Shown here piece by piece: positions 1,977 through 57,461 of a stretch of DNA of 64,000 nt (position 1 is the first letter of the stretch; each line of letters opens with the position of its first letter). The notes under the pieces are model-generated. The model had not been told where the DNA came from and made no database searches. It was given only the letters and a program-made list of their open reading frames with translations. The translations under genes and the position numbers were made by a program. Source of the stretch: Cryomorphaceae bacterium (GTDB lineage Bacteria; Bacteroidota; Bacteroidia; Flavobacteriales; Schleiferiaceae); the NCBI GenBank assembly GCA_021298655.1, contig JAJTFK010000001.1, positions 5,001 through 69,000 of the forward strand, given 5' to 3'.

Positions 1977-1984
1977 CCAAGGTA
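1977..1984 (-). promoter_or_regulatory. Candidate -7 promoter element of feoAB
   Basis: The minus strand reads TACCTTGG, close to the Bacteroidota -7 consensus TAnnTTTG, and ends four bases before the feoA ATG. No clear upstream TTTG is seen. Inferred from sequence only. Confidence 0.35.
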
Positions 1985-3391: not shown

Positions 3392-4387
3392 TTATTCGGT
3401 AATAAAGGGGTAATCTCCGTCCACGTACACGTGCTGCCAAAGCTCTTCGGCGTCCGGGTAGGGCGACTTTTCGGCAAAATCCACGCACTCGGCAACAAGG
3501 TCCTTAACTCGGGCATCGATCGCCTCAATATCGGAGGCCGATGCCCACTTCTTTTTGAGGAGGACGTCTTTGGCCGTCAGGATGGGGTCAATCAGCTGGT
3601 ACTCGGCCACCTCGTCCTTGGTTCGGTAGTGCTGGGCATCCGACATGGAGTGGCCTTTGTAGCGGTAGGTGCGAATTTCCAGGAAGCTCGGACCTTCACC
3701 GCGGCGTGCGCGTTCCACGGCTTCGTAGACGGCATCGTACACCACAGCCGGATCCATTCCCTCCACCGGGGCACAGGGCATTTCGTAGCCCAAGCCGAGC
3801 TTATAGATATCGGTGTGGTTCGCGGTGCGCTCTACCGAGGTGCCCATGGCGTATCCGTTGTTCTCCACGATGAACACTACGGGGAGCTTCCAAAGCATCG
3901 CCATATTAAAGGTTTCGTGAAGCGATCCTTGGCGCACGGCGCCGTCGCCCATGTAGCAGAGCGTCACGTGGGGTTTGCCCAAGTACTTGTCGGCAAAAGC
4001 CATTCCCGCACCGAGCGGAATCTGCCCTCCGACGATTCCGTGTCCGCCGTAAAAATTGTGCTCCTTCGAAAACATGTGCATCGAGCCGCCCTTACCGCGC
4101 GAGGTACCGTCGACCTTGCCCAGCAATTCGGCCATGATTTTGCGCGGATCGACCCCAAGGCCAATGGGCTGAACGTGGTTCCGGTAGGCCGTAATCATTT
4201 TGTCGCCCGGCTCCATGGCGAGCAGCGAACCCGCAAGCACGGCCTCTTGACCGTTGTACAGGTGAAGGAATCCGCGAATTTTTTGCTGGATGTACAGCGC
4301 CGAGGTCATATCCTCAAACTTGCGCCAGAAGAGCATGTCTTCGTACCACTTGAGGTAGACCTCTTTGGTGAGCTTCTTTTTTGCCAT
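3392..4387 (-). CDS. pdhA: Pyruvate dehydrogenase E1 component, alpha subunit
   Basis: Thiamine-diphosphate-dependent decarboxylase subunit, 331 residues from MAKKKLTKEV. The ThDP/Mg motif begins with GDG at 147-149 and ends with NN at 176-177. The phosphorylation-loop-like segment 'YRYKGHSMSDAQHYRTKDE' is typical of PDH E1-alpha. The reading frame could extend ten codons upstream to a TTG at 4417, but that TTG lies inside a perfect TACTTTTG promoter element, so the ATG at 4387 is chosen. It leads the pdhA-pdhC operon, which ends at the hairpin at 2045-2067. Confidence 0.95.
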   Translation of the reverse strand: MAKKKLTKEVYLKWYEDMLFWRKFEDMTSALYIQQKIRGFLHLYNGQEAVLAGSLLAMEPGDKMITAYRNHVQPIGLGVDPRKIMAELLGKVDGTSRGKGGSMHMFSKEHNFYGGHGIVGGQIPLGAGMAFADKYLGKPHVTLCYMGDGAVRQGSLHETFNMAMLWKLPVVFIVENNGYAMGTSVERTANHTDIYKLGLGYEMPCAPVEGMDPAVVYDAVYEAVERARRGEGPSFLEIRTYRYKGHSMSDAQHYRTKDEVAEYQLIDPILTAKDVLLKKKWASASDIEAIDARVKDLVAECVDFAEKSPYPDAEELWQHVYVDGDYPFITE

Positions 4388-4414: not shown

Positions 4415-4422
4415 CAAAAGTA
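4415..4422 (-). promoter_or_regulatory. -7 promoter element of pdhAC
   Basis: The minus strand reads TACTTTTG, an exact match to TAnnTTTG, 27 bases before the pdhA ATG. Unlike most promoters in this window it leaves room for an untranslated leader of about 20 bases. Confidence 0.5.
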
Positions 4423-13085: not shown

Positions 13086-13726
13086 AGGGCGTAGCGGATT
13101 CCGCTCGAGAGCGTCACCCAAAGCGGGTACTCCTTGTAGGCCGTCACCGGACTTGCTTCAAACTCATTAAAGGCATTGTCCAAACCGACCAGGCCGAACC
13201 AACTCCAGTTTTCGTTGAGCTTAATCGACGAACCCAACTCAATTCCGGCCGACGTGATGGTCTTGGCCACTTCGCTGGAAATGCCGTCGCGCTCCACCGA
13301 CTGAAGGCGTCGGTACGCAATAGGAACCCAAACCTCTAGGGTCGTAATGTCGGAGACCTCCGTGGCAAACCCAAGTCGGCCGCGCAGAAGCAGGTAGTGG
13401 CTCTGGGTGCGGCGAAGCGATTCTCGGTCGGGACCTTGGCGGTAGGCAAACGTGTTCTGCGCCACATCAACGCCGAGGCGGAAGGGCTTAATGTTGGCGT
13501 TGACGGCCAGGCCATAGGCCCCACCCAGTCCGCCCCGAAAGACGTCCGTGACGTCGGGCTGCGTGCCCACCACTTCACCGACCGTGCGGCGGAATACCGT
13601 ATTGGCTTGTACGAAGGGGGCCACCGAAAGGCTGCGCTCGCGCACGTCGCTGTCGGTGTAGTAGACTTGGGCGCTCAGGCTGGTTGCCGCAATTAATGCG
13701 GCTAGGATTACGCTAATTTTTGCCAT
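13082..13726 (-). CDS. Secreted protein of unknown function, probable outer-membrane barrel
   Basis: 214 residues. A signal peptide of about 20 residues (ending 'ATSLSAQ') is followed by alternating polar and hydrophobic strands ('FRLGVDVAQNTFAY', 'SHYLLLRGRLGFA', 'WSWFGLVGLDNAF') and a C-terminal strand 'WVTLSSGIRYAL' that looks like an outer-membrane barrel end. I recognise no named family. It overlaps the alaS 3' end by 19 bases and murF by four, so it is probably read on the alaS transcript. Confidence 0.75.
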   Translation of the reverse strand: MAKISVILAALIAATSLSAQVYYTDSDVRERSLSVAPFVQANTVFRRTVGEVVGTQPDVTDVFRGGLGGAYGLAVNANIKPFRLGVDVAQNTFAYRQGPDRESLRRTQSHYLLLRGRLGFATEVSDITTLEVWVPIAYRRLQSVERDGISSEVAKTITSAGIELGSSIKLNENWSWFGLVGLDNAFNEFEASPVTAYKEYPLWVTLSSGIRYAL

Positions 13727-16308
13727 TTCTCGGTAAATGCAGTCAGTAAGTTAGGAATTCCCGCTGGGTTTTTGCCGCCGGCCGAAGCATAAAACGCCTG
13801 ACCGCCGCCCCCACCCTGAATATGGCTTCCCAGTTCGCGGACCCAGTTGCCCGAGTGAACCTTTGCTACGGCGGTTTCGCCGGCTCCCAGGTGCGCCTGG
13901 GCCTTGCCGTCTTCTTCGATGGCCACCAGGATGACCAGGTCGGGGTTGTCCTTGGTCAAACCAAATACGAGGTCTTTGGCGGCGGCTGAACCGATGGGTA
14001 GCTGGGCAGACACCCACCGAAGGCCCGCATGCTGCACGGCCGATCCCAGCAAATCTCCTTGGGCGTCGGCGGCTTGGGCGCGCTGCGCGGCCTCCAGCTT
14101 CTTTTTGGCATCGGCGAGCTGCGCACGGAGGTCCTGAAGCACCGAGACGGGGTTGGAGTTTTTGGCTTCGTCGACCACCTCGTTCCACTGGCGGCGAATG
14201 CCTTTGAGGTAGGCCTCAGCGGACGCGCCCGAGAGGGCTTCCATTCGGCGAACGCCCGAGGCCACGCTCGATTCCGACACGAGGACAAACGGAGCCAGCA
14301 TTCCGGTGGCCGCCACGTGGGTGCCGCCGCAAAGCTCGATGGACGGCCCAAACTGAATTACGCGCACCGAGTCTCCGTACTTTTCGCCAAACAAGGCCAT
14401 GGCCCCGAGGGTCTTGGCTTCGGCGATCGGAACGGCACGGCGCTCGACCAGGGGCTGGTTGGCGCGAATGGCTTCGGCAACGTGGTCCTCAATGCGGTCC
14501 AGCTCTTCGGCCGTCACCTTTTGGAAGTGGCTGAAGTCAAAACGCAGTGTTTCAGGCGATACCAGGGAACCACGCTGCTCGACATGGGTTCCAAGTACGC
14601 TGCGCAGCGCGTGGTGCAGCAGGTGCGTAGCGCTGTGGTTTTGGGCTGATGCGGAACGGCGCGCGCCGTCCACCGTGAGCGTTACCTCGGCGGTCCACGT
14701 AGCCGGAGCCGACTCGAGGTGGTGCAGGATCATGCCCGTTTCCTTGGTCGTGGTCCGCACCGCAACCTGCTCCCCGCCGAAGGAAACCCAACCTTGGTCG
14801 CCAACTTGGCCTCCGCCCTCGGGGTAAAAGGGCGTGGGCGAAAAGCAGGCCTGCACTACGAGGCCCTTGGCGGTTTCGACGCTGCGGTAGCGCAGCAGCT
14901 GTGCGCGGGATTCTAAATGGTCGTAGCCCACAAAAACATCGCTGGCGCCCTCGTGGACAAGCGTCCAGTCGCCGACCTTTTGGGCAGACGCTTGGCGCGA
15001 ACGCGTTTTTTGCGCATCCATGGCCGCCGCGAAGCCGTTCTCGTCGACCGACTTGCCCTGTTCGCGGCAAATCAATGAGGTCAAATCAAGCGGAAAACCA
15101 AAGGTGTCGTAGAGTTCAAAGGCGCGTTCGCCCGTCAGCACGTCGGACTCGGCCAACGCCGCATCAAGCCGCTTCAGGCCCGATTCCAGGGTGCGCAAAA
15201 ACGCCACCTCTTCTTCGCGAATCACCTGCTGGATAAAGTCTGCCCGAGCCGGAAGTTCGGGGAAGGCGGAACCCATGTTCGCGACCATGACGGGCACGAG
15301 CTCCGCCATGAAGGGCTCGCGGAAGCCCAACGTGCTGTATCCGTAGCGAATGGCGCGGCGCAGGATGCGTCGAATGACGTAGCCCGCCCCGTTGGATGCC
15401 GGCAATTGACCGTCGGCTACCGCGAAGGCCACGGCGCGAATGTGGTCGGAGGCCACGCGCATGGCGATGTCGATGCGTTCCTCAACGCCGTAGGTCAGCC
15501 CGCTCAGGGCCTCCAGGCGGCGCAGGTAGGGCTTAAATACTTCGGTGTCGTAGTTCGACGAGGCACCCACCACCGCGCGGGCCAAGCGCTCAAAGCCCAT
15601 GCCCGTGTCGACGTGCTGGGCGGGCAGGGTAACCAGCGAGCCGTTGGCCTTGCGCTCGAACTGCATGAACACGAGGTTCCAGATTTCAATCACCTGGGGG
15701 TCGTCGTTGTTGACCAAGGTGGCGCCGTCCACGGCCGCGCGCTCGGCCGCCCCCCGCAGGTCCACGTGAATCTCGGAACAGGGACCGCAGGGGCCCGTAT
15801 CGCCCATCTCCCAAAAATTGTCTTTTTTGCTGCCGTACAAAATGCGGTCGGCCGCTATGTGTTTGAGCCACATACCCTTGGCCTCGTCGTCTGCCGCGAG
15901 TCCGTCACCCTGGTCTCCGCCAAATACGGTTACGTACAGTCGGTCCTTTTCGAGTTGGCAAACCTGCGTCAAAAATTCCCAAGCCCAGTCGATGGCCTCT
16001 TGCTTGAAGTAGTCGCCAAACGACCAGTTGCCGAGCATTTCAAAGAGGGTATGGTGGTAGGTGTCGATGCCAACCTCCTCAAGGTCGTTGTGTTTTCCGC
16101 TCACGCGCAGGCACTTTTGGCTGTCGGCGATGCGCGCGTGCACCACCGGCTTGGCGCCGATGAACACGTCTTTAAACGGATTCATTCCCGCATTGGTGAA
16201 CATCAGCGTGGGGTCGTCCTTGATTACCAAGGGCGCCGAGGGCACAATTACGTGGCCTTTGGACGCAAAAAAGTCAAGGTATGCCTGACGGAGTTCGTTC
16301 GGGTTCAT
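13708..16308 (-). CDS. alaS: Alanyl-tRNA synthetase
   Basis: Charges tRNA-Ala. About 866 residues from MNPNELRQAYLDFF, the normal start and length. Catalytic-domain landmarks include 'GMNPFKDVFIG', 'RVSGKHNDLEEVG' and 'ASNGAGYVIRRILRRAIRYG'. The editing-domain zinc motif HxxxH is in 'SATHLLHHAL' (near residue 560) and 'CGGTH' is near 658. The glycine-rich C-Ala end 'GGGGGGQAFYASAGG' is complete. An in-frame upstream extension lacks homology and runs into the divergent M23 promoter. It is divergent from the M23 peptidase across 37 bases. Confidence 0.97.
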   Translation of the reverse strand: MNPNELRQAYLDFFASKGHVIVPSAPLVIKDDPTLMFTNAGMNPFKDVFIGAKPVVHARIADSQKCLRVSGKHNDLEEVGIDTYHHTLFEMLGNWSFGDYFKQEAIDWAWEFLTQVCQLEKDRLYVTVFGGDQGDGLAADDEAKGMWLKHIAADRILYGSKKDNFWEMGDTGPCGPCSEIHVDLRGAAERAAVDGATLVNNDDPQVIEIWNLVFMQFERKANGSLVTLPAQHVDTGMGFERLARAVVGASSNYDTEVFKPYLRRLEALSGLTYGVEERIDIAMRVASDHIRAVAFAVADGQLPASNGAGYVIRRILRRAIRYGYSTLGFREPFMAELVPVMVANMGSAFPELPARADFIQQVIREEEVAFLRTLESGLKRLDAALAESDVLTGERAFELYDTFGFPLDLTSLICREQGKSVDENGFAAAMDAQKTRSRQASAQKVGDWTLVHEGASDVFVGYDHLESRAQLLRYRSVETAKGLVVQACFSPTPFYPEGGGQVGDQGWVSFGGEQVAVRTTTKETGMILHHLESAPATWTAEVTLTVDGARRSASAQNHSATHLLHHALRSVLGTHVEQRGSLVSPETLRFDFSHFQKVTAEELDRIEDHVAEAIRANQPLVERRAVPIAEAKTLGAMALFGEKYGDSVRVIQFGPSIELCGGTHVAATGMLAPFVLVSESSVASGVRRMEALSGASAEAYLKGIRRQWNEVVDEAKNSNPVSVLQDLRAQLADAKKKLEAAQRAQAADAQGDLLGSAVQHAGLRWVSAQLPIGSAAAKDLVFGLTKDNPDLVILVAIEEDGKAQAHLGAGETAVAKVHSGNWVRELGSHIQGGGGGQAFYASAGGKNPAGIPNLLTAFTEKWQKLA

Positions 16309-16323
16309 GCGGGTGGTTTTGCC

Positions 16324-16331
16324 TACTTTTG
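16324..16331 (+). promoter_or_regulatory. -7 promoter element of the M23 peptidase operon
   Basis: TACTTTTG, an exact TAnnTTTG match, 14 bases before the ATG at 16346 in the 37-base divergent region with alaS. Confidence 0.5.
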
Positions 16332-16345
16332 AAGGATACAAAAGT

Positions 16346-17323
16346 ATGCGCCGCGCCAAGTACATCTACGACCCGCTCACCCTCGCCTACCACAAGGTCG
16401 AGCGCACCTGGAAGCACATTCTGCGCGACACCTCGTTGTTTTTGCTTGGCTCCATGTTGATGGGCCTCATTTTCTTCTTCGGAATTCAGTATTTCATGGA
16501 CTCCCCCGCCGAACGCGCACTCAAGCGGCAGCTCGAAATCTCGGAGCAAACCTATTCCGAACTCGAAGACCAGATGGAAGAGCTTTCGGGCGTGATCGAA
16601 GAGTTGGAGCGCCGGGACAACGAAATCTACCGGGTCATCCTCGAGTCGGAACCCCCGGCGACCTGGGTACGCCAAGGCGGACTCCCCACTACGGGAAGCA
16701 GCTACGAGCGCATTCGGGGGCTGTCCAACGAAACCCTTTTGGAGCGCAGCCTCCGCCGGGTGGACGACCTGAAAAAACGCCTTGCGGTGCACTCAGCCAG
16801 CCTCGACGAAGTGGCGGATTTGGCCCAGCGCAAAGGCGACATCCTCGAAGCGCTGCCCGCCATTCGACCGGTCAAGGATCAACCCGGCATCAAGCTTTCG
16901 TCGGGCTTCGGCTACCGCGTGGACCCCATGTTTAAGGTGAGTAAAATGCACCAAGGCATTGATTTTTCGGCGCGGCAGGGAACGCCCATCTACGCCACGG
17001 CCGACGGGGTAGTGGTGTCGAACGAACTCTACGGTGGGCGCGGATTCGGCAAGCACTTAACTATTAGCCATGGGTACGGATATCACACCCTGTACGCCCA
17101 CATGAGTCGCGTAGTGCGCCGGCAAGGGCAGCGCATCAAACGGGGCGACTTAATTGGTTACGTCGGAAACACCGGAAAATCTACCGGGCCGCACCTGCAC
17201 TACGAAGTCATCTACAAGGGGCAGCGGGTTAACCCCATTAACTTCTTCTTCAACGACCTGACCCCGGCGCAGTACAACCAGCTGCTTGCTCAAGCCGCGG
17301 CCAACAACCAATCCCTTGACTGA
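16346..17323 (+). CDS. M23 family metallopeptidase, membrane-anchored
   Basis: Probable peptidoglycan endopeptidase of 325 residues. A short cytoplasmic start is followed by one transmembrane helix (31-49), a coiled coil (about 56-100, then 130-165) and a C-terminal LytM domain. The zinc ligands are visible as HxxxD (His202, Asp206) and HxH in 'GPHLHYE' (His283, His285). The intact ligand set suggests an active enzyme rather than an EnvC-like activator. The stop codon shares one base with the start of the MerR gene. The first in-frame ATG after the promoter is used as start. Confidence 0.9.
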   Translation: MRRAKYIYDPLTLAYHKVERTWKHILRDTSLFLLGSMLMGLIFFFGIQYFMDSPAERALKRQLEISEQTYSELEDQMEELSGVIEELERRDNEIYRVILESEPPATWVRQGGLPTTGSSYERIRGLSNETLLERSLRRVDDLKKRLAVHSASLDEVADLAQRKGDILEALPAIRPVKDQPGIKLSSGFGYRVDPMFKVSKMHQGIDFSARQGTPIYATADGVVVSNELYGGRGFGKHLTISHGYGYHTLYAHMSRVVRRQGQRIKRGDLIGYVGNTGKSTGPHLHYEVIYKGQRVNPINFFFNDLTPAQYNQLLAQAAANNQSLD

Positions 17324-19421: not shown

Positions 19422-19429
19422 GACCTTTG
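19422..19429 (+). promoter_or_regulatory. Candidate promoter element before the lipoprotein gene
   Basis: GACCTTTG, seven of eight positions of TAnnTTTG, ends four bases before the ATG at 19434. It would start a near-leaderless message inside the operon. Confidence 0.35.
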
Positions 19430-19433
19430 CCCC

Positions 19434-19793
19434 ATGATTTCATCTCGTTTTTTCCGATTCGGTGCGTTCGCATTCGCCGTGCTTGCCCTAACCGGCTGCG
19501 GAGCGCCCAAATTCACGCTTGGCTCCACGACCCAAGGCCTGCAAATCACCGTCGATAAGCCCGTTCAGCAGCAATTGAGCATTCAGTCGGTTCAGGTCGA
19601 GGAAAACGGCACTTGGACCAGTCCCGCCTTTCAGGTTAAGTACGCGAACCGCGACGAAGTGGTGCTCGGAACCAAGGGCGAATCGAGCGTACGCGTGAGC
19701 GTTTCGGGTGCCAAAGACGCCCGTTCTGCCCAGGTCACCTTCCGAACCGCTCCGGGAAAGCCCCTGAAAACCAAGCTAGTTAACGCCAAGTAA
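19434..19793 (+). CDS. Small lipoprotein of unknown function
   Basis: 119 residues. A signal peptide with lipobox 'LALTGC' puts the lipidated Cys at residue 22. The mature part has short beta-strand-like segments ('QLSIQSVQVEENGTW', 'SVRVSVSGAKDARSAQVTFR'). No family is recognised. The ATG at 19434 is chosen because the signal peptide starts there; the open frame upstream overlaps the TPM gene in another frame. It lies 17 bases after the TPM gene and three before the pterin synthase-like gene. Confidence 0.8.
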   Translation: MISSRFFRFGAFAFAVLALTGCGAPKFTLGSTTQGLQITVDKPVQQQLSIQSVQVEENGTWTSPAFQVKYANRDEVVLGTKGESSVRVSVSGAKDARSAQVTFRTAPGKPLKTKLVNAK

Positions 19794-21168: not shown

Positions 21169-22182
21169 ATGAAGTCCGCATTCCGTGCCCCATCCAACAT
21201 TGCCCTCGTGAAGTACTGGGGCAAATACGGCGTGCAGCTTCCGAGCAAACCGTCGATCAGCTTTACTCTGGATTCCTGCGCCACCGAAACGACCGTGGAA
21301 CTCACGGATCGCCCGGGAATTTCGGTGGAACTCGACGGCGAGGACACCCCCGGTTTTGTGCCCAAAATCGCGCAATTCGTGGAGCGCATCGCCCCGCGCC
21401 ACCCCTGGATCGGCGACTACGGGATCCGGGTGCAGACCCACAACACCTTCCCGCACTCCTCGGGCATTGCGAGCAGTGCCTCCGGCATGAGTGCGCTGGC
21501 CCTCTGCGTGGTGGACCTGGCCCAAAAACTCGGACACGCCGTGGGTGATCCCAAGCAAGAAGCCTCCATTTTGGCACGGCTGGGTTCCGGCAGCGCCTGC
21601 CGATCCCTCTACGGAGGTCTGGTCGTTTGGGGCGAAACCCCTTCGGTTCCGGGATCCGCACAGGAGTTCGGGACCCCCTATCCGCATAAGTTAAACGAGG
21701 TGTTCCGCAGCTACCGCGACGTAGTGGCTCTGGTAGACGTGGGCCAAAAGGCGGTGAGCAGTACCGCCGGGCACCAGCTGATGGAACGGCACCCGTTCCG
21801 CACGCAGCGCTTCGCACAAGCCCACGACCACCTGGCCGCCCTTGGTCCCATTCTGGCCTCGGGCGACCTTGATGCCTTCATGGAGCTGGTCGAACTTGAA
21901 GCCCTTACGCTTCACGGCCTGATGATGTCGAGTTCGCCCAGCTACATTTTGATGCGGCCGCAAACCCTGCGAATCATTGAGGCCATTCGCGGATTTCGCC
22001 TCGAGTCCGGAATTCCCATTTGCTTTACCCTGGACGCCGGAGCCAACGTGCACATCCTGTTCCCCGAGCAGGCCGAACAATCCGCCATGGAATTTGTTAT
22101 CGATCACGTACAGCCTTGGTGCAAAGACGGCCGAATGATTGCGGACCGCGTGGGCCAAGGACCGGTACCTTTGCACGAATGA
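21169..22182 (+). CDS. mvaD: Diphosphomevalonate decarboxylase
   Basis: Last step from mevalonate to isopentenyl diphosphate. 337 residues. 'APSNIALVKYWGKY' near the start and the GHMP ATP loop 'PHSSGIASSASG' (95-106) are diagnostic; 'GSGSACRSLYGGLVVW' and the C-terminal 'CFTLDAGANVHILFP' complete the enzyme. Flavobacteria commonly use the mevalonate route, and the next two genes are the usual partners. It overlaps the mevalonate kinase gene by four bases. Confidence 0.95.
   Translation: MKSAFRAPSNIALVKYWGKYGVQLPSKPSISFTLDSCATETTVELTDRPGISVELDGEDTPGFVPKIAQFVERIAPRHPWIGDYGIRVQTHNTFPHSSGIASSASGMSALALCVVDLAQKLGHAVGDPKQEASILARLGSGSACRSLYGGLVVWGETPSVPGSAQEFGTPYPHKLNEVFRSYRDVVALVDVGQKAVSSTAGHQLMERHPFRTQRFAQAHDHLAALGPILASGDLDAFMELVELEALTLHGLMMSSSPSYILMRPQTLRIIEAIRGFRLESGIPICFTLDAGANVHILFPEQAEQSAMEFVIDHVQPWCKDGRMIADRVGQGPVPLHE
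22166..22173 (+). promoter_or_regulatory. -7 promoter element of mevalonate kinase inside mvaD
   Basis: TACCTTTG, an exact TAnnTTTG, five bases before the kinase ATG at 22179 and within the last codons of mvaD. It predicts an internal leaderless transcript. Chance occurrence inside coding DNA cannot be excluded. Confidence 0.4.
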
Positions 22183-23123
22183 ATCTGAGCCCCAAATACT
22201 TTGCGAAAATTCTTCTGTTCGGAGAATACGGCGTAATCCGCGACGCGATGGCGCTCTCGATTCCGTACACCAGTTTTTCAGGGGTTCTGCGGATGCCCGA
22301 AGGCGAAGCCAGCTTTGCCGAGCGCGAATCCAATGCCTCCCTCAACCGCTTCGCCAGCTACCTTGAGGAGCTGGCCGCCTTGGGAAGTTTGATGGCCGAC
22401 CTGGATTTGTCGGCGCTTCGTGCAGACATCGACCGCGGACTATTTTTTGACTCCAGCATTCCGCAGGGCTACGGCGTGGGCTCTTCGGGTGCCATGGTAG
22501 CAGCTCTGTACGCGCGCTACGCCCGAAACCCCCTGCCCCTCGAGGAGGCGCATGACGCCGAGAAACTCAAGGCCCTAAAGGCCGAAATGGCCCAAATGGA
22601 GTGCTACTTCCACGGCAAAAGTTCGGGAATGGACCCCACCATTTGCTACCTGCAGCTTCCGCTGCTGGTTCGTTCGTCGGAAGAACTCGGCACCGTTCGG
22701 ATGCCCTCGCTTCCCAGCGACGGCCTGGGCGGAATTTTCCTGCTCAACTCGGGAACGCCCGGCGAAACCCAACCTATGGTGCAGCTGTTCATGGAAAAGC
22801 TCAAGGAAGAAGGTTTTCGTCGCCTGATGACCGATCGGTTCAAAAAGTACAACGACGCCTGCGTCGCGGCCTTCCTCGACGGAAAGACGGACGTTTTGCT
22901 TCGGGAGCTCAAGAAGCTCAGCGGACTGGTCCTTGAGAATTTTGGACCCATGATTCCCAACGACTACCACAGCCTCTGGCAAAAGGGAATCGACACCAAT
23001 GCTTACTACCTGAAGCTTTGCGGCTCGGGCGGCGGAGGCTACATTTTGGGTTTTGCCCCGGATCTTGAGCAAGCTCAGGCCGCGCTGAATCCGCACCGCA
23101 TGGACGTGGTTCTTCGCTTTTAG
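22179..23123 (+). CDS. mvk: Mevalonate kinase, GHMP family
   Basis: ATP-dependent kinase of 314 residues. 'YFAKILLFGEYGVI' at the N-terminus and the GHMP loop 'PQGYGVGSSGA' (95-105) identify it. 'HGKSSGMDPTICYL' carries the substrate and catalytic Asp region, and 'KLCGSGGGGYILGF' is the third GHMP motif. In Flavobacteriia this gene follows mvaD and is assigned to mevalonate phosphorylation. Start chosen at ATGA overlapping mvaD; the longer frame upstream overlaps mvaD without homology. Confidence 0.88.
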   Translation: MNLSPKYFAKILLFGEYGVIRDAMALSIPYTSFSGVLRMPEGEASFAERESNASLNRFASYLEELAALGSLMADLDLSALRADIDRGLFFDSSIPQGYGVGSSGAMVAALYARYARNPLPLEEAHDAEKLKALKAEMAQMECYFHGKSSGMDPTICYLQLPLLVRSSEELGTVRMPSLPSDGLGGIFLLNSGTPGETQPMVQLFMEKLKEEGFRRLMTDRFKKYNDACVAAFLDGKTDVLLRELKKLSGLVLENFGPMIPNDYHSLWQKGIDTNAYYLKLCGSGGGGYILGFAPDLEQAQAALNPHRMDVVLRF

Positions 23124-26084: not shown

Positions 26085-26092
26085 TACCTTCG
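26085..26092 (+). promoter_or_regulatory. Candidate promoter element of the M20 peptidase
   Basis: TACCTTCG (seven of eight to TAnnTTTG) ends four bases before the ATG at 26097. On the opposite strand TATCTTTC (26054-26061) may serve the divergent T9SS cargo gene. Confidence 0.35.
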
Positions 26093-26096
26093 AATC

Positions 26097-27485
26097 ATGA
26101 TTGATTCGTACGTTTCCCAGCACCGTCAACGCTTTCTTGACGAACTTTTTACGCTGCTGCGCCTTCCCAGCATTTCGGCAGACCCCGCCTACAAAGATTC
26201 CGTACTCGCAACGGCCGACGCCGTAGCCGGCTTCTTAACCCAAGCAGGCGCGCAGCGCGTTGAGGTCTGCGCCACCCCGGGCTATCCCGTAGTCTACGGC
26301 GAGTACCTCGTCGACCCCTCGCGGCCAACGGTCTTGGTGTACGGGCACTACGACGTGCAGCCCGCCGACCCCCTGAATCTTTGGACCACCCCGGCGTTCG
26401 AGCCCGAAATCCGAAGCACGCCGATCCACCCCAACGGGGCCATTTTTGCGCGCGGAGCCTGCGACGACAAGGGCCAGTTTTTCATGCACATCAAGGCTTT
26501 TGAAGCCATGGTGGCCCAGGGCAACGTGCCCTGCAACATGAAGTTTATGATCGAGGGCGAAGAAGAAGTAGGATCCAACAACCTCGAATGGTTCGTCAAG
26601 CGCAACCGCGAACGACTCGCCTGCGACGTCATCCTGATTTCGGACACGGGCATCATTGCTCCGGGCGTGCCGTCGATTTCGGTGGGACTGCGCGGACTCT
26701 CCTACGTTGAAGTGGACGTTACCGGACCCAACCGCGACCTGCACTCCGGCATTTACGGCGGCGCGGTGGCCAATCCCATCAACATTTTGACGGAGATGAT
26801 TGCGTCGCTTCACGACAAGGACAACAAAATCACCATCCCGGGATTCTACGACAAGGTTCAGGAACTGAGCGATGCCCAACGAGCCGATCTGAACTCCGCG
26901 CCCTTTAGCCTCGAAGAATACAAAGCAGCCCTGGAACTCAGCGACGTTCATGGCGAAACGGGCTACACGACCATTGAACGCACCGGAATCCGTCCCACCC
27001 TCGACGTGAACGGGATTTGGGGTGGCTACACGGGCGAAGGCGCCAAAACCGTCATCGCCTCCAAGGCCTACGCCAAAATTTCGATGCGCCTGGTTCCGGA
27101 CCAGGATCCCGACGAGATTACCGAGTTGTTTTCGGCCCACTTCAAGCGCATTGCTCCGCCCAGTGTCACGGTCCAAGTTCGTCCGCACCACGGTGGCCAC
27201 GCCTACGTGTGTCCGACGGACCACCCCGGCTACCGAGCCGCCCACAAGGCCATGGCGGAGACCTACGGCCGCGCGCCGGTTCCGACCCGAGACGGCGGAT
27301 CCATTCCTATTGTTGCCTTGTTCGAGCGCGAATTGGGCGTTAAGTCGATTTTGATGGGTTTTGGCCTGGACAGCGACGCCATCCACTCGCCCAACGAGCA
27401 CTACGGCCTCGACAACTACTTCCAAGGTATTCGCACCATTCCGCGCTTCTACCTGCACTTCGCCGAAGAGGTTAAAGGGCAGTAA
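26097..27485 (+). CDS. M20 family dipeptidase
   Basis: Cytosolic zinc peptidase of 462 residues in the carnosinase-like (CNDP/PepV-type) group. Metal-site residues are His84 and Asp86 in 'YGHYDVQP', Asp123 in 'ACDDKGQ' and the Glu pair at 155-156 in 'EGEEEVGS'. The lid/dimerisation domain is present ('GPNRDLHSGIYGG'), as is the C-terminal His ligand region ('DAIHSPNEHYGLDN'). It has no signal peptide. It stands alone, with a bidirectional terminator after it. Confidence 0.94.
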   Translation: MIDSYVSQHRQRFLDELFTLLRLPSISADPAYKDSVLATADAVAGFLTQAGAQRVEVCATPGYPVVYGEYLVDPSRPTVLVYGHYDVQPADPLNLWTTPAFEPEIRSTPIHPNGAIFARGACDDKGQFFMHIKAFEAMVAQGNVPCNMKFMIEGEEEVGSNNLEWFVKRNRERLACDVILISDTGIIAPGVPSISVGLRGLSYVEVDVTGPNRDLHSGIYGGAVANPINILTEMIASLHDKDNKITIPGFYDKVQELSDAQRADLNSAPFSLEEYKAALELSDVHGETGYTTIERTGIRPTLDVNGIWGGYTGEGAKTVIASKAYAKISMRLVPDQDPDEITELFSAHFKRIAPPSVTVQVRPHHGGHAYVCPTDHPGYRAAHKAMAETYGRAPVPTRDGGSIPIVALFERELGVKSILMGFGLDSDAIHSPNEHYGLDNYFQGIRTIPRFYLHFAEEVKGQ

Positions 27486-27550: not shown

Positions 27551-29767
27551 TTAGGCCACGTACAGCTGGTGCACCCGGTGCATCAGTGCGGTAATGTCGC
27601 GCAACTCCATGAGCAGCTTGGTTTGCAGGTGGGACTGGCGCGTGGAAATCTCGCCGCTGCGGTAGCTCTGCAGCTCCCGATCGAGGATGCGCTGAATGTC
27701 CGAAATAATTCGGCGCTTCGCGGCAAGCAAGTCGCTGTTGGATTCGCTCTTACCCGTTTCAAGCGCCATAACGATTCGGCCGGAATACGCCGTGAAGAGG
27801 GCGATTACCTCGGCGTAGGCCAGCAGGAAGGCGCCGTGCGGGCGGGCATGAAGGTTGGCCAGGTAATCGTGTTCGGCCTCGACCATGGCTCGGGCGCTCT
27901 CGGTCATGTCGCAGACGTAGTCAAACGCCAGCAGGTGCGCGCGGTACGACGCCGATTTTTCGCCCTTAAAATCGCGAATAATGCGCACCATCCGGAGCTC
28001 CAGCTTCTCGTGGCGCTTCATCAGCAGCGTGACTTCTTTGCGCAGTCGGCGCGTGGTGCGCTTTTGGTTGTTGGCCAGTGCCTCCGCGGCCATAATGACA
28101 ATGTTGGCCGTGCGGTCCACATCCGAGCCCATAAGCACCCGGCTGCTGCTCATGGGCTCTTCGGCATTGGCCAGTTTTTCGATGACGTCTTCCACCAGGT
28201 TCTCGGCCTTCATTTGGTCCGCAAAGCCCATGTGGCTTCGAACGATCAAGCCCAGGGCAAACACCGTCAAAATCAAGGCCGCGATGAACTCGCCGTAGTA
28301 CAAAAATGCCGCAAACAAGGCCGATGCCGTGAAGGCAATCACGGCCGTGAGCAGCCAGCTTCCGATCACGTTGACCACGCCGGCCACGCGGTAAACCGCC
28401 GACTCCTGACCCCATGCCCGGTCGGCCAGCGACGAACCCATGCCCACCATAAACACAACGAACGTGGTGCTCAAGGGCAGCCCCAAACTGGTAGCGTAGG
28501 CGATCAGGGTTGAAGCGAGCAGCAAATTCACGCTGCCCCGAACGTAGTCGAAGGCGGGCTGGTTGCGCCCGTCCACCGCGGCGTTCGGCTCGGGCTGGGC
28601 AAAGCGCCGGTCCGTCCAGGTGCGCACGCCCGATCCCGTAAACCGGGCAAACAGGCTAGCGGCCGCCAACGTCGTTGACGTGATGGTTCGGCTCACCGCG
28701 TTGGGCTTGAATTTCTCGCTGCCCTCTCCTTGGCGCGCCAGATTAATTTCGGTTTCGCTCACCTTGCGGGCCTTCGCGTTCGTCCACAACGTGGCAATCA
28801 TAATGGCACCAGCAACCAGCAGAATGGCAAAGGGCGTCGTCACTTCTTCGGACATGGAATCCATCATCAGGAGGTGCGGATCAACGCCACTGGCGGCATA
28901 AACCTGGTAGGCCTGAAACGCCGCCAGCGCAGGCCCAATGAAGTTGACCAGGTCGTTGCCTGCGAAGGCCATGGCCAGCGAAAAGGTTCCGAACAGCACC
29001 ACGTAGCGAAGCGGATTTACGCCGCGAAGCACCGCAAACTGAGCCAGCAACGTAAAGCCAATAAAAAAGACTACGAGCAGTTGATTTTGGCTGGCCTCCA
29101 ACCACTTGCCCAGGTCCGCGTTGACCAAGACACTTCCTTTTAATCCCTTAAAAATAAGGTAGTTAAGAATGAATGTGGCCGCGAGTCCGCTAAAAATTCC
29201 GCCAAAATAGCGCAGGGTGTTTTCAAGTCGGTAGGTGAACACCAAGCGCGCCACCCACTGAACTACTAAGCCCGTTATAAAGGCCACGCCCACCGACGAA
29301 AAAATGCCGTTAATGATTCGAACCGTACTGTTTAAGTTCAGGTACTCCGAGAACTGAAAGGGATCCAATCCGCGATCAATCGCCGTCAGAAACCCAATGG
29401 CCGTTCCTGCGCCAAAGAGTTCAAAAACCAGCGAAACCGTGGTCGAGGTTGGGATTCCGAAGGAATTATAGACGTCCAGCAAGATGACGTCGGTCAGCAT
29501 CACCGCGACAAAGATGAAGAGCAGGCTGTGAAACGAGAAATACGAGGGATCGAACACGCCGTTCCGCGCCACTTCCATCATTCCGCTCGAAAAAAGGGTA
29601 CCGAGCACCACGCCAAAGCTGGCTACGGCAAGAATAACCCGCATGCTGCCGGCGCGGGTGCCCAAGGCGGAGTTCAAGAAATTGATGGCATCGTTCGCCA
29701 CGCCGACGATTAAGTCGAGCGTAGCCAGTGCCATGAGCAACAGAACAAGTAAAAAATACGGATCCAT
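27551..29767 (-). CDS. PiT-family inorganic phosphate transporter with C-terminal PhoU-like region
   Basis: 738-residue inner-membrane symporter. The paired PiT signatures are visible: 'GVANDAINFLNSALGTRAG' near the N-terminus and 'AGNDLVNFIGPALAAFQAY' in the second half. Two membrane halves flank a soluble loop. The last 240 or so residues are soluble and helical ('RTTRRLRKEVTLLMKRHEKLELR', 'LLMELRDITALMHRVHQL'), resembling a PhoU-like bundle fused to the transporter. Fused PiT proteins of this length are found in Bacteroidota. It has its own promoter (29773-29780) and the shared terminator at 27505-27534. Confidence 0.93.
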   Translation of the reverse strand: MDPYFLLVLLLMALATLDLIVGVANDAINFLNSALGTRAGSMRVILAVASFGVVLGTLFSSGMMEVARNGVFDPSYFSFHSLLFIFVAVMLTDVILLDVYNSFGIPTSTTVSLVFELFGAGTAIGFLTAIDRGLDPFQFSEYLNLNSTVRIINGIFSSVGVAFITGLVVQWVARLVFTYRLENTLRYFGGIFSGLAATFILNYLIFKGLKGSVLVNADLGKWLEASQNQLLVVFFIGFTLLAQFAVLRGVNPLRYVVLFGTFSLAMAFAGNDLVNFIGPALAAFQAYQVYAASGVDPHLLMMDSMSEEVTTPFAILLVAGAIMIATLWTNAKARKVSETEINLARQGEGSEKFKPNAVSRTITSTTLAAASLFARFTGSGVRTWTDRRFAQPEPNAAVDGRNQPAFDYVRGSVNLLLASTLIAYATSLGLPLSTTFVVFMVGMGSSLADRAWGQESAVYRVAGVVNVIGSWLLTAVIAFTASALFAAFLYYGEFIAALILTVFALGLIVRSHMGFADQMKAENLVEDVIEKLANAEEPMSSSRVLMGSDVDRTANIVIMAAEALANNQKRTTRRLRKEVTLLMKRHEKLELRMVRIIRDFKGEKSASYRAHLLAFDYVCDMTESARAMVEAEHDYLANLHARPHGAFLLAYAEVIALFTAYSGRIVMALETGKSESNSDLLAAKRRIISDIQRILDRELQSYRSGEISTRQSHLQTKLLMELRDITALMHRVHQLYVA

Positions 29768-29772
29768 GAGCG

Positions 29773-29780
29773 CAAAGGTA
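29773..29780 (-). promoter_or_regulatory. -7 promoter element of the phosphate transporter
   Basis: The minus strand reads TACCTTTG, an exact TAnnTTTG, five bases before the ATG at 29767. The transcript would start at or next to the ATG. Confidence 0.5.
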
Positions 29781-29824: not shown

Positions 29825-29857
29825 TCCGGGCTGGCGGGCAATGTACCTTAGCCCGGA
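29825..29857 (+). promoter_or_regulatory. Inverted repeat flanking the promoter element of the YyaL-like gene
   Basis: TCCGGGCT (29825-29832) and AGCCCGGA (29850-29857) are perfect 8-base inverted repeats separated by 17 bases, and the second arm abuts the ATG at 29858. A TACCTTAG element (29844-29851) lies between and partly in the right arm. It could be an operator or a hairpin at the start of the message. Confidence 0.4.
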
Positions 29858-31792
29858 ATGAATCGCCTTGACCGATCTCCAAGTAACTACCTGCAGCAGC
29901 ACGCCCACCAACCCATTCACTGGAATGAGTGGAGTTCCGAACTCCTGGAGCGGGCTGCAGCCGAGGGCAAATGGCTGCTGGTATCGATTGGCTACGCTAC
30001 CTGCCACTGGTGCCATGTTATGGCCCACGAAGTTTTTGACGATCCGGAAGTCGCGGAAATCCTCAATTCCCGGTGGATTAGCATTAAAGTTGACCGCGAA
30101 GTGCGCCCGGATCTCGACCAGGCCTACATGGCCGCGAGCTTGGCCATGACCGGTCAAGGCGGTTGGCCCCTGAACGCCATTTGCCTGCCCGACGGGCGGC
30201 CCGTGTGGATTGCCACCTACCTTCCCAAGGACCGGTTCGTCGCGGCGCTTCGCCAACTCGAAACCGTTCGGGCGCAGCACAGCCTCGAAGCGGCGGATTA
30301 CGCGGAACAGGTTCGGCAGGCCCTGAATCCTCCCGAACGAACGATTGCCCCCTTGGAGCGCCCAAGCGATGGCGCGCTTCGGGAGGCCATGGCCCAAACC
30401 TGGGATGATTCGTGGGGCGGATTTCGCGGAGCCCCCAAGTTTCCGTTGCCCGCCACGTGGAGCGCCGTGCTCCGCTGGTCCCGGCTGAATTCCTGGCCCG
30501 AGGGCGTGCATCACGTGAACCGAACGGTTTCCTGCCTGCTGCGTTCGGGCACCTACGACCTGCTGCGCGGCGGACTTTGCCGCTACAGCACCGACGGCGC
30601 GTGGGTCCTGCCCCATTTTGAAAAAATGCTCTACGACAGCGCCCAGTTTGCGTCCCTCTGCGCGGAGTTGGGCACGGACGAATCGCTGACGGCCCTCGGC
30701 GAGACCTTGGAGTTTATGGAACGGGATCTGCTGCGCCCCGACGGACTTTTTGCGGCTGCACTGGACGCGGACCATCCCGATGGCGAGGGCCGACACGCCA
30801 CCTGGACGCACCAGGAGCTCGAGGCCTGCCTCGGCAGCGACGCCCCGGCGTGGTTTGACGTTTTGTCTCGCGAGAGCCGACTGCACGACGGGGCTTGGGT
30901 CATCGCAACGGGCTCGGACGCCCAGCCCCATCCCCACAGCCTGCCCGGGTTTTCCAAGCTCCGCGCTGCAGCCCTCCATCGCCCCCTACCTGCCACGGAC
31001 CGCACCTGCGTGATTTCCTGGAATGCCTTGGCGGTGCGCGCCTTCGCCGACGGAGCCCAGCGCAGCGGACGCACCGAAGACCGCGAACGGCTCCAGCGCC
31101 TTGCTGCGGCCCACCGAGCGGCTTTTGCCGACGGGTCGGTCCACGCCCACTACCCAGATGGACGGGTAAACGGCCCGGCTTTTTTGGACGACGTGGTGTA
31201 CAGCGTGCACATGGCCCTGCGCTGCGGCCAGGTCCTGCTCGACCCGGAGTGGATTGACGTCGCCGTGGAGTGGTTTGAGCGGTCCCGAGCCAGCTTCGAA
31301 CGAGACGGCGCCGTGTACTTTGCCCCCGAAGGCGTCGATTCGCCGGCCTTTGCGGACATCCTCCATTGGGACGACGACGTACTGCCCAATAGCTTGAGCC
31401 TCTGGGCCGAATGCGCCCTAATTCTGGGCCACATCCGGCAGCGAATGGATTGGGTGGATTGGGCCACCCAATGGGTTCAGCGCGGCCTTCAGGTGGCCTG
31501 GGGGCAACCATCCCGCCATGCATCGTGGGTGGCCCTGGCCGAGTTGGTTTCCGCGGACCGGGTGCATTGGCTTATTCAGCCCAAACAGGCGCTCGGGCCA
31601 CGCCCCATTCCCCCTTCGCCCCTCTGGGGCCCCTTGGAACTGCCCCAAAGTACTTTTGCGCAGTGCTGCAGCATGAGTGCCTGCTTGGCTACGGTGGGCT
31701 CAGCCGACGAATGGGACGGCGGTCCAAATCCCTTTCGGGTCGGATTCCATGCGTCCACCGAGGAGGATGCGGGCACCGGGCGCGCTACCTAA
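29858..31792 (+). CDS. YyaL/SPATA20-like thioredoxin-domain protein (DUF255)
   Basis: 644-residue cytosolic protein. The N-terminal thioredoxin-like domain has the family motif 'YATCHWCHVMAHEVF' (Cys49, Cys52) and 'SNYLQQHAHQPIHW'. The rest is an (alpha/alpha)6-barrel of the glycosidase/epimerase type, with 'GFRGAPKFPLPATW', 'GGLCRYSTDGAWVLPHFEKMLYD' and 'LDADHPDGEG'. The molecular function of the family is not established. Its end overlaps tsaB tail to tail by four bases. Confidence 0.92.
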   Translation: MNRLDRSPSNYLQQHAHQPIHWNEWSSELLERAAAEGKWLLVSIGYATCHWCHVMAHEVFDDPEVAEILNSRWISIKVDREVRPDLDQAYMAASLAMTGQGGWPLNAICLPDGRPVWIATYLPKDRFVAALRQLETVRAQHSLEAADYAEQVRQALNPPERTIAPLERPSDGALREAMAQTWDDSWGGFRGAPKFPLPATWSAVLRWSRLNSWPEGVHHVNRTVSCLLRSGTYDLLRGGLCRYSTDGAWVLPHFEKMLYDSAQFASLCAELGTDESLTALGETLEFMERDLLRPDGLFAAALDADHPDGEGRHATWTHQELEACLGSDAPAWFDVLSRESRLHDGAWVIATGSDAQPHPHSLPGFSKLRAAALHRPLPATDRTCVISWNALAVRAFADGAQRSGRTEDRERLQRLAAAHRAAFADGSVHAHYPDGRVNGPAFLDDVVYSVHMALRCGQVLLDPEWIDVAVEWFERSRASFERDGAVYFAPEGVDSPAFADILHWDDDVLPNSLSLWAECALILGHIRQRMDWVDWATQWVQRGLQVAWGQPSRHASWVALAELVSADRVHWLIQPKQALGPRPIPPSPLWGPLELPQSTFAQCCSMSACLATVGSADEWDGGPNPFRVGFHASTEEDAGTGRAT

Positions 31793-38448: not shown

Positions 38449-39300
38449 TTAAATGAACCGGTCAAGCACCCAAATGGTTTGAACCAGGGGCAGGTATCGA
38501 ATGGTGCTGAACATTAGGGCCCGAGCCGAGGCGTCTTCGTGGCGGCGCCAGTGGAGCACGGCGTGGTACAGCACATCCAGCCCGAGGAGTCCGGTCGCGA
38601 TCCCGGCCCATAGATCAAGGGTCAGCGTGCCGGCCATGCCCCAGGCGGGCATGAGCGAAATCAAAATCATCCAAAAGGTGTAAAAGAGCGTGAGCCGGGT
38701 TGCCAGCGCATCTTTGGCTCGGTTGGGCAGCAGGTAGTAGCCCGCCTTCGCGTAGTCGTCGAACGCCAGCCAGGCAATGGCCCAAAAGTGGGGGAACTGC
38801 CACACAAACTGGTAGGCAAAGAGCACGCCGGACTCCAACCCAAACGATCCGGTCGCGGCCACCCACCCGAGCATGAAGGGAATGGCACCGGGCACTGCGC
38901 CCACCAGAACGGCCCAAGGAGATTTTGCCTTCAAGGGCGTGTAAATCAGCACGTAAATCAAGAGACTAAGGGCCCCAAAAACGGCCGTCTTCGCATTGAG
39001 GACGGCAAGGGCTGCAATTCCCGCGACGCCAAAGAGCAGGGCCCAAAGCAGCGCGGTCCGACGGGTCATGCGGCCCGAAGGCAACGGGCGGTTCTGGGTG
39101 CGGTTCATGAGGCCGTCTTGCTCGGTCTCCCAAACCTGGTTAAAGGCATTGCTCGATCCCACTACGGCGAATCCGCCCAAGGTGAGCATCAGCACATTAA
39201 GGAATTGAATTTCAGGCGCCGCAATCAGGTAGCCCGCGACCGCCGAAATGACGACCGAAAAGGCCAACCGGAATTTCAGCAAGAGCCCGAGGTCACGCAT
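38449..39300 (-). CDS. cyoE: Protoheme IX farnesyltransferase (heme O synthase)
   Basis: 283-residue UbiA-superfamily membrane enzyme that adds a farnesyl chain to heme B for the oxidase. The first prenyl-diphosphate motif lies in 'SNAFNQVWETEQDGLMNRTQNRPLP' and 'FHFWAIAW'-type second-motif sequence is represented by 'WQFPHFWAIAWLAFDDYAKAGYYLLP'. The ATG at 39300 begins MRDLGLLLKFRLAFSVV; the open frame upstream overlaps cysQ. The adjacency to COX3 genes supports a role in oxidase heme supply. Confidence 0.94.
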   Translation of the reverse strand: MRDLGLLLKFRLAFSVVISAVAGYLIAAPEIQFLNVLMLTLGGFAVVGSSNAFNQVWETEQDGLMNRTQNRPLPSGRMTRRTALLWALLFGVAGIAALAVLNAKTAVFGALSLLIYVLIYTPLKAKSPWAVLVGAVPGAIPFMLGWVAATGSFGLESGVLFAYQFVWQFPHFWAIAWLAFDDYAKAGYYLLPNRAKDALATRLTLFYTFWMILISLMPAWGMAGTLTLDLWAGIATGLLGLDVLYHAVLHWRRHEDASARALMFSTIRYLPLVQTIWVLDRFI

Positions 39301-40138
39301 CGCCGCAAAGATACGGAGCGCCGCAGGCCAAGAAGGGCGGATTGAGTAAGTTCTCTTTATTGTACACCAGACTGGCGCCCGCTTGAAATCCGCTTGGACC
39401 GTGGTGCAGCTGCAGCAGGTCCATGCCCGCACCGAGCAGCACGGCATGTCCCGCAGCCGTGTCCCATTCCATCGTCGGCGCCGCGCGCGGATAGGCGTGG
39501 GCGCGTCCCTCCGCAACCAAACCAATTTTGAGCGAAGACCCCATGCTCACCCGCTCGATGGGACCAACCTTAGCCTCCCAGCGGGCAATAAGTGCCTCCG
39601 TTTCGGGCGTCGCGTGGGATCGGCTGGCAACCACCGTGGTTTTCTCGGGAAAACGGGCGGGAAGAACCTGCGCCTGACTCCAAAGATCGGCCCAGCTAAC
39701 GCGCACCATGGATTTGCGGGAACCCAAGCCGGGACCACCCACGTAAAGCCATCCGAGCACCGGGGCGTAGACGAACCCCATAACGGGGGAACCGTGCTGT
39801 ACCAGTGCTACGTTCACCGTGAACTCCCCGTTCCGCTTGAGGAACTCCTTGGTTCCGTCGAGCGGATCCACAACCCAGTACGTCGTCCAGGAGCGGCGCT
39901 CGTCAAACGGGATGCTCCGACCCTCTTCGCTCATAACCGGGAAGCCCGTAGCCTCAAGGACGGGGTCCAGCACGGCGTGGGCGGCATGGTCTGCGGCCGT
40001 CACCGGACTGTTGTCGGACTTCAGCGTAACCTCGAGCTCCTGGTGTCCGTCGTAGACGCGAAGAATGGCGTCTGCCGCCGCGTAGACCGCATCGAGTACC
40101 GCGGGTCCCCAAGAAAGTTCCAGTGGGTTTTGGTTCAT
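39293..40138 (-). CDS. cysQ: 3'(2'),5'-bisphosphate nucleotidase CysQ
   Basis: 281-residue Mg-dependent phosphatase that recycles PAP from sulfate metabolism. Metal ligands fit the inositol-monophosphatase fold: Asp50 ('TAADHAA'), Glu71 ('SEEGRSIPF'), Asp91 and Asp94 ('DPLDGTKEF') and the C-terminal 'MEWDTAAGHAVL'. The ATG at 40138 lies six bases after a promoter-like element that is itself the tail of the tonB terminator. It overlaps cyoE by eight bases and so heads the oxidase/efflux run. Confidence 0.93.
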   Translation of the reverse strand: MNQNPLELSWGPAVLDAVYAAADAILRVYDGHQELEVTLKSDNSPVTAADHAAHAVLDPVLEATGFPVMSEEGRSIPFDERRSWTTYWVVDPLDGTKEFLKRNGEFTVNVALVQHGSPVMGFVYAPVLGWLYVGGPGLGSRKSMVRVSWADLWSQAQVLPARFPEKTTVVASRSHATPETEALIARWEAKVGPIERVSMGSSLKIGLVAEGRAHAYPRAAPTMEWDTAAGHAVLLGAGMDLLQLHHGPSGFQAGASLVYNKENLLNPPFLACGAPYLCGDA

Positions 40139-40144: not shown

Positions 40145-40174
40145 CAAATAAAAAACCCCGGACAATCCGGGGTT
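40145..40174 (-). terminator. Terminator of the gcvH-vanZ-tonB operon, overlapping a cysQ promoter-like element
   Basis: The minus strand carries AACCCCGGA, a three-base loop and TCCGGGGTT, then a T-run. That T-run reads TTTATTTG (40145-40152), seven of eight positions of TAnnTTTG, ending six bases before the cysQ ATG. The stem starts 21 bases after the tonB stop. Confidence 0.88.
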
Positions 40175-40893: not shown

Positions 40894-41297
40894 ACTACGT
40901 CGTGTTTGGGGTTAAAGATACGCTTTCTGATAAACAGCGCAAGAACTATACCGCTGGCAATTCCCAGGGAATTGGCCAGAACATCGTACCAGGAAAAGAC
41001 ACGGCCCTCAGCCACAATGGGTTGGAGAATTTCTACGCCGAGGCCGTAGCCGAAACTTAACACAGAAACCTTAACGGGCCCAGCCGAAGAACGCGAATAC
41101 AGCATCAGCAAAAAGGAAACTCCAGCATAGGCGCCAAAGTGAAGCACCAGGTCCTGAACCAGCCGGAAGAGGCCCGGCAATTCCACGCTCGGCTGAAGGG
41201 AATAAAAAAGCACAATGCCCGCCCAAACCAGGGCGAGCACCAGCCAAAGCTGCCGCAGGCGCAGCAGCGAAACGATCCGTCCCTTAAGCACCGACAA
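40890..41297 (-). CDS. VanZ family membrane protein
   Basis: 135 residues, four hydrophobic helices, with the VanZ-like pattern '[14 protein letters not shown]', '[18 protein letters not shown]', '[15 protein letters not shown]' and '[22 protein letters not shown]'. VanZ itself gives low-level teicoplanin resistance; the role of the many short homologs is unknown. It overlaps gcvH by 14 bases and tonB by four. This gene triplet is common in Flavobacteriia. Confidence 0.88.
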
Positions 41298-41664
41298 GGG
41301 CGCGGTAGGCGTCGGCGTCCATCAGGTCATCGACGTCCGAAACGTGTGCAACCTTGACGCGAACCATCCAACCGGCACCGTAGGGATCCGAGTTGACCAG
41401 GTCCGGCTGGCCGTCAATTGCGGCGTTGACTTCGAGGACTTCGCCCGCAATCGGGAGGTAGAGGTCGCTCACCGTCTTAACCGCTTCAACCGAGCCGAAG
41501 ACTTCTTCGGCGGCCAAGGTCTCGCCCTCGGTGGGGATGTCAACGAATACGATGTCGCCAAGTTCTCCCTGGGCGAAGTCGGTGATGCCAACGGTAGCAA
41601 CATCGCCCTCTAGGCGAAGCCACTCGTGGTCTTTGGTGTAGCGTAAGTTGCTGGGGATTTCCAT
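41284..41664 (-). CDS. gcvH: Glycine cleavage system H protein
   Basis: 126-residue lipoyl carrier of the glycine cleavage system. It begins '[13 protein letters not shown]' and carries the lipoylation motif '[14 protein letters not shown]' (Lys63). The P and T protein genes are not in the window, so gcvH is unlinked, as is usual in this phylum. It has its own promoter element four bases upstream and leads the gcvH-vanZ-tonB operon. Confidence 0.96.
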
Positions 41665-41668: not shown

Positions 41669-41676
41669 CAAATATA
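41669..41676 (-). promoter_or_regulatory. -7 promoter element of gcvH
   Basis: The minus strand reads TATATTTG, an exact TAnnTTTG, ending four bases before the ATG at 41664, in the 39-base gap after sprA. Confidence 0.5.
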
Positions 41677-50299: not shown

Positions 50300-50332
50300 T
50301 AAAGGTACTTCGTTGCGAAGTCCGCACCCAAA
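50300..50332 (-). promoter_or_regulatory. Promoter of the secreted protein/ruvA/sprA run
   Basis: The minus strand carries TTTG (50329-50332), 21 bases, then TACCTTTA (50300-50307), seven of eight to TAnnTTTG, ending four bases before the ATG at 50295. Both elements and their spacing fit the Bacteroidota promoter model. Confidence 0.55.
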
Positions 50333-52395: not shown

Positions 52396-52428
52396 TTTGG
52401 ACACCGATTGAAGTAGTACGTACCTTGA
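52396..52428 (+). promoter_or_regulatory. Promoter of the tlpA-DUF6029-omp28 operon
   Basis: TTTG (52396-52399), 21 bases, then TACCTTGA (52421-52428), ending four bases before the ATG at 52433. The -7 element is imperfect (six of eight), but the upstream TTTG and spacing match the one at 50300-50332. Confidence 0.45.
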
Positions 52429-57404: not shown

Positions 57405-57412
57405 CAAATGTA
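57405..57412 (-). promoter_or_regulatory. -7 promoter element of ruvB-queG
   Basis: The minus strand reads TACATTTG, an exact TAnnTTTG, directly abutting the foot of the ctaD terminator hairpin and ending five bases before the ruvB ATG. Confidence 0.55.
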
Positions 57413-57443: not shown

Positions 57444-57461
57444 CAACGAACTTATAAACGC

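Follow-up and report, generated by a model that had tools for sequence, protein, structure and literature searches.

-7 promoter boxes adjoining start codons predict leaderless mRNAs in a genus of small-genome Flavobacteriales

In the genome of the uncultured bacterium analysed here, the -7 box of the Bacteroidota primary sigma factor lies 4-6 nt before the start codon of numerous genes, an arrangement that very probably gives rise to leaderless mRNAs, alongside a second gene set predicted to have short leaders devoid of a Shine-Dalgarno (SD) sequence. With the box at this spacing (throughout, the number of nucleotides between box end and start codon), RNA polymerase would start at the A of the ATG or 1-2 nt earlier, and the ribosome would then initiate on the 5'-terminal AUG of a leaderless mRNA without SD pairing; in the second set the same box, placed about 14-40 nt upstream, would produce the short SD-less leaders. 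Both the true 5' ends and the mode of initiation at the box-proximal ATGs are predictions from sequence. About one-third of the first genes of transcription units in this organism and its genus probably lack an untranslated leader, roughly ten times the share in the members of the phylum studied so far.

The source assembly (1.60 Mb in 45 contigs, 97% complete, about 60% GC) is without rRNA. The ruvB gene of the window, i.e. the whole 64,000-nt stretch of DNA under analysis, is 92% identical to that of the metagenome-assembled genome UBA9924, followed by Flavobacterium at about 74%. The genus has 22 species, every one with a genome of 1.3-1.8 Mb, as against 1.8-4.0 Mb in the other genera sampled in the family. 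Genome-wide counts were taken on stretches totalling about 1.09 of the 1.60 Mb (68% of the genome), with the starts of 799 genes called by a simple program of our own that uses codon usage alone and is blind to the box. Gene identities were compared with Pfam/NCBIfam profiles, whose matches are named in the list below, and the chance level was set by dinucleotide-shuffled upstream regions (30 trials), reversed-pattern controls and adjacent spacings.

The initial annotation had listed 11 genes of the window as preceded by TAnnTTTG-like boxes; each of these octamers is present on the right strand, 4-6 nt 5' of an ATG. As it had stated, four are exact (mvk, PiT, gcvH and ruvB), while six of the remainder have one mismatch and one (tlpA) has two. 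The spacings of 27 and 14 it gave for pdhA and the M23 gene, named there as exceptions, are also correct. It had overlooked one further exact box, that of the heme o synthase gene. The sites are as follows:

22166..22173 (+), mvk (GHMP kinase): exact box TACCTTTG, spacing 5; ATG at 22179, CDS 22179-23123
29773..29780 (-), PiT transporter (PHO4): exact box TACCTTTG, spacing 5; CDS 27551-29767
41669..41676 (-), gcvH (GCV_H match, GcvH): exact box TATATTTG, spacing 4; CDS 41284-41664
57405..57412 (-), ruvB: exact box TACATTTG, spacing 5; CDS 56380-57399
39306..39313 (-), heme o synthase cyoE/ctaB: exact box TATCTTTG, spacing 5; CDS 38449-39300
50300..50307 (-), the 49612 gene: TACCTTTA, one mismatch, spacing 4; CDS 49612-50295
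19422..19429 (+), putative lipoprotein: GACCTTTG, one mismatch, spacing 4; CDS 19434-19793
26085..26092 (+), M20 peptidase (M20 match): TACCTTCG, one mismatch, spacing 4; CDS 26097-27485
1977..1984 (-), feoA (FeoA match): TACCTTGG, one mismatch, spacing 4; CDS 1745-1972
29844..29851 (+), YyaL-like gene (DUF255): TACCTTAG, one mismatch, spacing 6; CDS 29858-31792
52421..52428 (+), tlpA-like gene (thioredoxin fold): TACCTTGA, two mismatches, spacing 4, weak; CDS 52433-52912
40145..40152 (-), cysQ-like gene (inositol-phosphatase family): TTTATTTG, one mismatch, spacing 6, ambiguous; CDS 39293-40138
4415..4422 (-), pdhA, leadered contrast: exact box TACTTTTG, spacing 27; CDS 3392-4387
16324..16331 (+), M23 endopeptidase, leadered contrast: exact box TACTTTTG, spacing 14; CDS 16346-17323
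16339..16346 (-), alaS, leadered contrast: exact box TACTTTTG, spacing 30; CDS 13708-16308

The 49612 gene and the putative lipoprotein had no matches in Pfam. The last two genes of the list, alaS and the M23 gene, are divergent across a gap of only 37 nt (16308-16346) in which their exact boxes interlock, such that the M23 start codon has its first base inside the alaS box.

The spacing peak is evident even when gene calls are set aside. Among the 395 exact boxes in 1.09 Mb, the numbers followed by an ATG at spacings 0 to 8 are 2, 3, 1, 4, 52, 27, 20, 8 and 14, against a background of about 4.5 per spacing, and 80-96% of the ATGs at spacing 4-6 open a reading frame of at least 100 codons, as compared to 47% of those at 9-14. 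With the blindly called starts, an exact box ends 3-6 nt before the start in 63 genes (dinucleotide shuffles: mean 1.1, maximum 3 in 30), and a box with up to one mismatch does so in 147 (18.9 in shuffles). In the 22 species of the genus, the count at spacing 4 rises 4.6-fold over the reversed-pattern control (1316 versus 285), while at spacing 3 there is no rise (325 versus 314). The claim of the initial annotation that so fixed a spacing is not a matter of chance is thus upheld by a genome-wide test against shuffles, independently of gene calls and across 22 species. That T/A-rich octamers should simply happen to lie close to ATGs is an explanation to which we give negligible weight for the pattern: the genome is 60% GC, and neither shuffles, reversed patterns nor neighbouring spacings reproduce the peak. 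Degenerate octamers, one or two mismatches from the consensus, are nonetheless common, and about 13% of the matches with at most one mismatch are expected by chance. Coincidence may account for the single weak sites at tlpA, cysQ and mvk. The two mismatches of the tlpA box place it below the set covered by the statistics, and the cysQ box doubles as the T-run of a hairpin with the look of a terminator. Individual degenerate boxes, and mvk above all, are less certain than the overall pattern.

The position of the peak agrees with what is known of transcription initiation in Flavobacterium johnsoniae, where the -7 element is TAHHTTTG and lies 4-5 nt from the transcription start site (PMC6847099). 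Given this offset, transcription from a box at spacing 4 would begin at the A of the ATG, and at spacing 3 that A would be missing from the transcript. The peak begins precisely where the ATG would meet the transcription start, which lends weight to the earlier proposal that transcription starts at or beside the ATG, although the part of it that concerns the RNA itself is a prediction. At spacing 4, 57 of 67 cases have a pyrimidine at -1, as expected of a YR initiator. ATG is strongly preferred, as is typical of leaderless genes: the start codons at exact boxes of spacing 4-6 are 57 ATG and 5 GTG; without gene calls, spacing 4 has 52 ATG versus 13 GTG.

If the starts had been misassigned, these boxes would belong to ordinary promoters with the true start downstream, after a short leader. 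Most genes do have alternative in-frame starts, only 134 of the 799 having a single candidate; however, these 134 keep the peak, with 9 exact boxes and 23 with up to one mismatch at spacing 4-5. Moreover, the N-termini match their family models from the first residues (residue 1 of PheT corresponds to profile position 1, and residue 2 of SerC to position 3), the ruvB ATG stays by its box across species, and the pile-up of ATGs at exactly 4 nt would otherwise be without reason. We accordingly regard misassignment as highly improbable and retain the reading of these genes as putatively leaderless.

The coexistence of leadered and leaderless genes, suggested by the initial annotation, is borne out by two modes in the spacing distribution, at 4-8 and at about 16-22. 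In the studied genome, the second mode amounts to 41 boxes at spacing 16-21 versus 16.8 expected, and the interval between, spacing 9-15, has no excess (18 versus 19.6 expected; 9-15 against 16-22, p = 0.0009). Leaders of about 5-11 nt thus seem disfavoured, but genus-wide the count at spacing 12 is above control (376 versus 251); hence, the gap in leader length is proposed for the studied genome only. On testing, neither intergenic length in divergent genes nor downstream RNA folding differed between the leaderless and leadered classes.

An expectation-maximization motif search over all gene upstream regions returned TACCTTTG, with T, A, T, T, T and G nearly invariant. The two free positions are mostly C or T and avoid G (frequency 0.08-0.12 at both), giving the consensus TAYYTTTG. 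This is the octamer of the sigma-ABfr/sigma-A promoter of Bacteroidota (-7 TAnnTTTG, -33 TTTG), and the scarcity of G at the free positions matches its revision to TAHHTTTG; it differs in that the free positions are C/T-rich (TACCTTTG, in a genome of 60% GC) and the ATG is mostly 4-6 rather than 20-40 nt away. Upstream of 62 aligned sites we found no information indicative of the -33 TTTG element; the -33 motif is not clear in F. johnsoniae either (PMC6847099), and it therefore does not appear to be a strict requirement. The octamer might alternatively act in translation, as a non-SD ribosome-binding signal or one of S1 type within an mRNA that starts further upstream. Earlier work on Bacteroidetes interpreted AT-rich signals ahead of genes as ribosome-binding (PMC3160421; PMC9581028), and the box occupies roughly the position of a ribosome-binding site. 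However, an exact box at 4-6 precedes 29 of 262 genes whose upstream neighbour is on the opposite strand but merely 5 of 232 operon-internal genes, where the need for a ribosome-binding site is greatest; this argues for a promoter. The octamer also matches the established sigma -7 consensus exactly, it recurs at 14-40 nt with no excess between the two positions, and the abrupt onset of the peak at spacing 4 is consistent with the transcription start offset. Further, rpsU has both a box at leadered distance and a separate SD sequence. These observations render a translational element very unlikely, and favor the box as a promoter element.

Comparisons across species allow individual boxes to be evaluated. 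The mvk box lies within the coding 3' end of mvaD (21169-22182, whose product ends in VPLHE), the two genes sharing an ATGA overlap; taken alone, it might thus reflect chance or an internal promoter. In five sister species, where it was located by a patterned search, TAYCTTTG is kept in the form TATCTTTG-CAGYA-ATG, with the six fixed positions constant while the terminal residues of mvaD vary. The ruvB box is exact at spacing 4-5 in 22 of 23 sequences from the genus, and outside it, in other Flavobacteriaceae and Bacteroidota, an exact box at spacing 3-8 is found in 61 of 79 (spacing 4 in 43). For instance, F. johnsoniae strain CI04 has TATCTTTG-TAGG-ATG. Between the genus and Flavobacterium the N-terminal residues of RuvB and the flanking sequence diverge, while the box, its spacing and the adjoining ATG stay. 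A terminator-like GC-rich hairpin adjoins the ruvB -7 box on its upstream side (window 57405-57445), and likewise in most of the genus, as if a terminator and a promoter were fused.

To estimate the share of leaderless genes we applied a mixture model to the genes that are first in their transcription units, with the leaderless class defined by a box at 3-8 and the leadered class by a box at 14-40. For the studied genome it yields 31% leaderless promoters (bootstrap 26-35%) and 25% with short leaders; the 12% that it assigns to operon-internal genes represents noise or intragenic promoters. The corresponding leaderless and leadered shares are 8% and 54%, and 16% and 54%, in two members of the family, and 2% and 55% in a Flavobacterium-type genome, the former agreeing with the 5.5% leaderless among mapped mRNAs of F. 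psychrophilum by 5'-end RNA-seq (PMC9723704). In Bacteroides thetaiotaomicron, 3.7% of mRNAs have a 5' UTR under 10 nt (PMC7366714). These mapped leaderless mRNAs are from the same phylum and have the same box, but they are a small minority; here, as predicted from sequence, roughly one first gene in three would be leaderless, which exceeds the proportion found to be leadered. An AT-rich member of the order (G034; 17% leaderless, 49% leadered) and a genome from outside the class (G181; 13% and 19%), both outside the family, have leaderless-type boxes too, which suggests repeated rises within Bacteroidota. In a sample of 395 genomes from the phylum the studied genome has the strongest enrichment over control seen (73 versus 6), with other lineages enriched as well. 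Within the order, the genus leads in matches to TACCTTTG-N4-ATG, with 21-23 versus 0-2 in 1.6-1.8 Mb. One genome (G078), likewise enriched in pattern counts, was discarded as leaderless-rich on finding no clear leaderless peak in its stretches.

In Actinobacteria and Deinococcus-Thermus, the TA-led genes are leaderless and have a -10-type promoter placed at a constant distance just ahead of the start codon (PMC3160421); there, too, both gene classes coexist. The mechanism proposed here is thus known in kind, albeit with a different sigma box. The survey of Zheng et al. (2011), which was built on the Pribnow box of E. coli, found such genes in a single one of the 37 Bacteroidetes/Chlorobi genomes covered, where the share was 2.4%, and itself noted a possible underestimate in Bacteroidetes (PMC3160421); surveys based on the E. 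coli -10 box would have overlooked the leaderless genes described here. Later gene finders placed the FCB group under AT-rich non-canonical ribosome-binding sites (PMC9581028). The frequency of leaderless genes, their box and their concentration in this genus appear new with respect to the literature searched, beyond which most subscription journals lie. As an answer to how start codons are chosen in Bacteroidota without SD pairing, leaderless mRNA had been dismissed on account of the small numbers in model species. The genus, and to a lesser degree the related families, offer natural lineages for gene-by-gene comparison of leaderless and leadered initiation; the conserved ruvB arrangement is amenable to testing in cultured Flavobacterium, and the box provides a strong positional cue for start-codon prediction in these genomes.

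The translational context is in line with ribosomes that make little use of SD pairing. SD cores placed 5-13 nt upstream of the start are rarer than in shuffled sequence (37 versus 55 among the 799 genes), and in the leaderless class the number is 8 versus 9.4. By contrast, rpsU (G000:C3:90044), which encodes bS21, has its own TACCTTTG box at leadered distance followed by the extended SD sequence AGGAGGTG. The presence of bS21, a leadered SD-bearing rpsU and the rarity of SD cores elsewhere all match the bS21-dependent occlusion of the anti-SD and the autoregulation of rpsU described in Flavobacteriales (PMC9976891), although that work dealt with SD-less leadered mRNAs rather than leaderless ones. 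The 3' end of the 16S rRNA was not recovered from the assembly; the SD of rpsU together with bS21 suggests, by implication, that the anti-SD is intact but normally occluded. We rejected the idea that leaderlessness stems from a loss of bS21, since the genus has rpsU, as do 38 of the 40 genomes searched.

We give about even weight to a broader proposal: that in this streamlined genus of Flavobacteriales the first genes of transcription units would most commonly rely on leaderless initiation, an approximately tenfold lineage-specific rise over the studied Bacteroidota, on ribosomes with a presumably occluded anti-SD; only leaders of 0-4 nt or of at least about 12 nt would be tolerated, and leadered promoters would be kept for the more highly expressed genes. 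With regard to the last point, a random sample of leadered genes includes AtpD, the alpha and beta subunits of PDH E1, GcvP, Adk, AlaS and SerS, and one of leaderless genes PanB, FumC, SerC, PheT, TrxB, CyoE, Lnt and DusB. Among exact boxes, codon adaptation is 0.746 for leadered versus 0.709 for leaderless genes (p = 0.006), a small difference that is suggestive of higher expression of the leadered genes, such as those for ATP synthase, PDH and aminoacyl-tRNA synthetases. Finally, the window encodes an open reading frame of 2429 aa at 41704-48993 (-), which on account of its size we take to be perhaps SprA of the gliding/T9SS apparatus.
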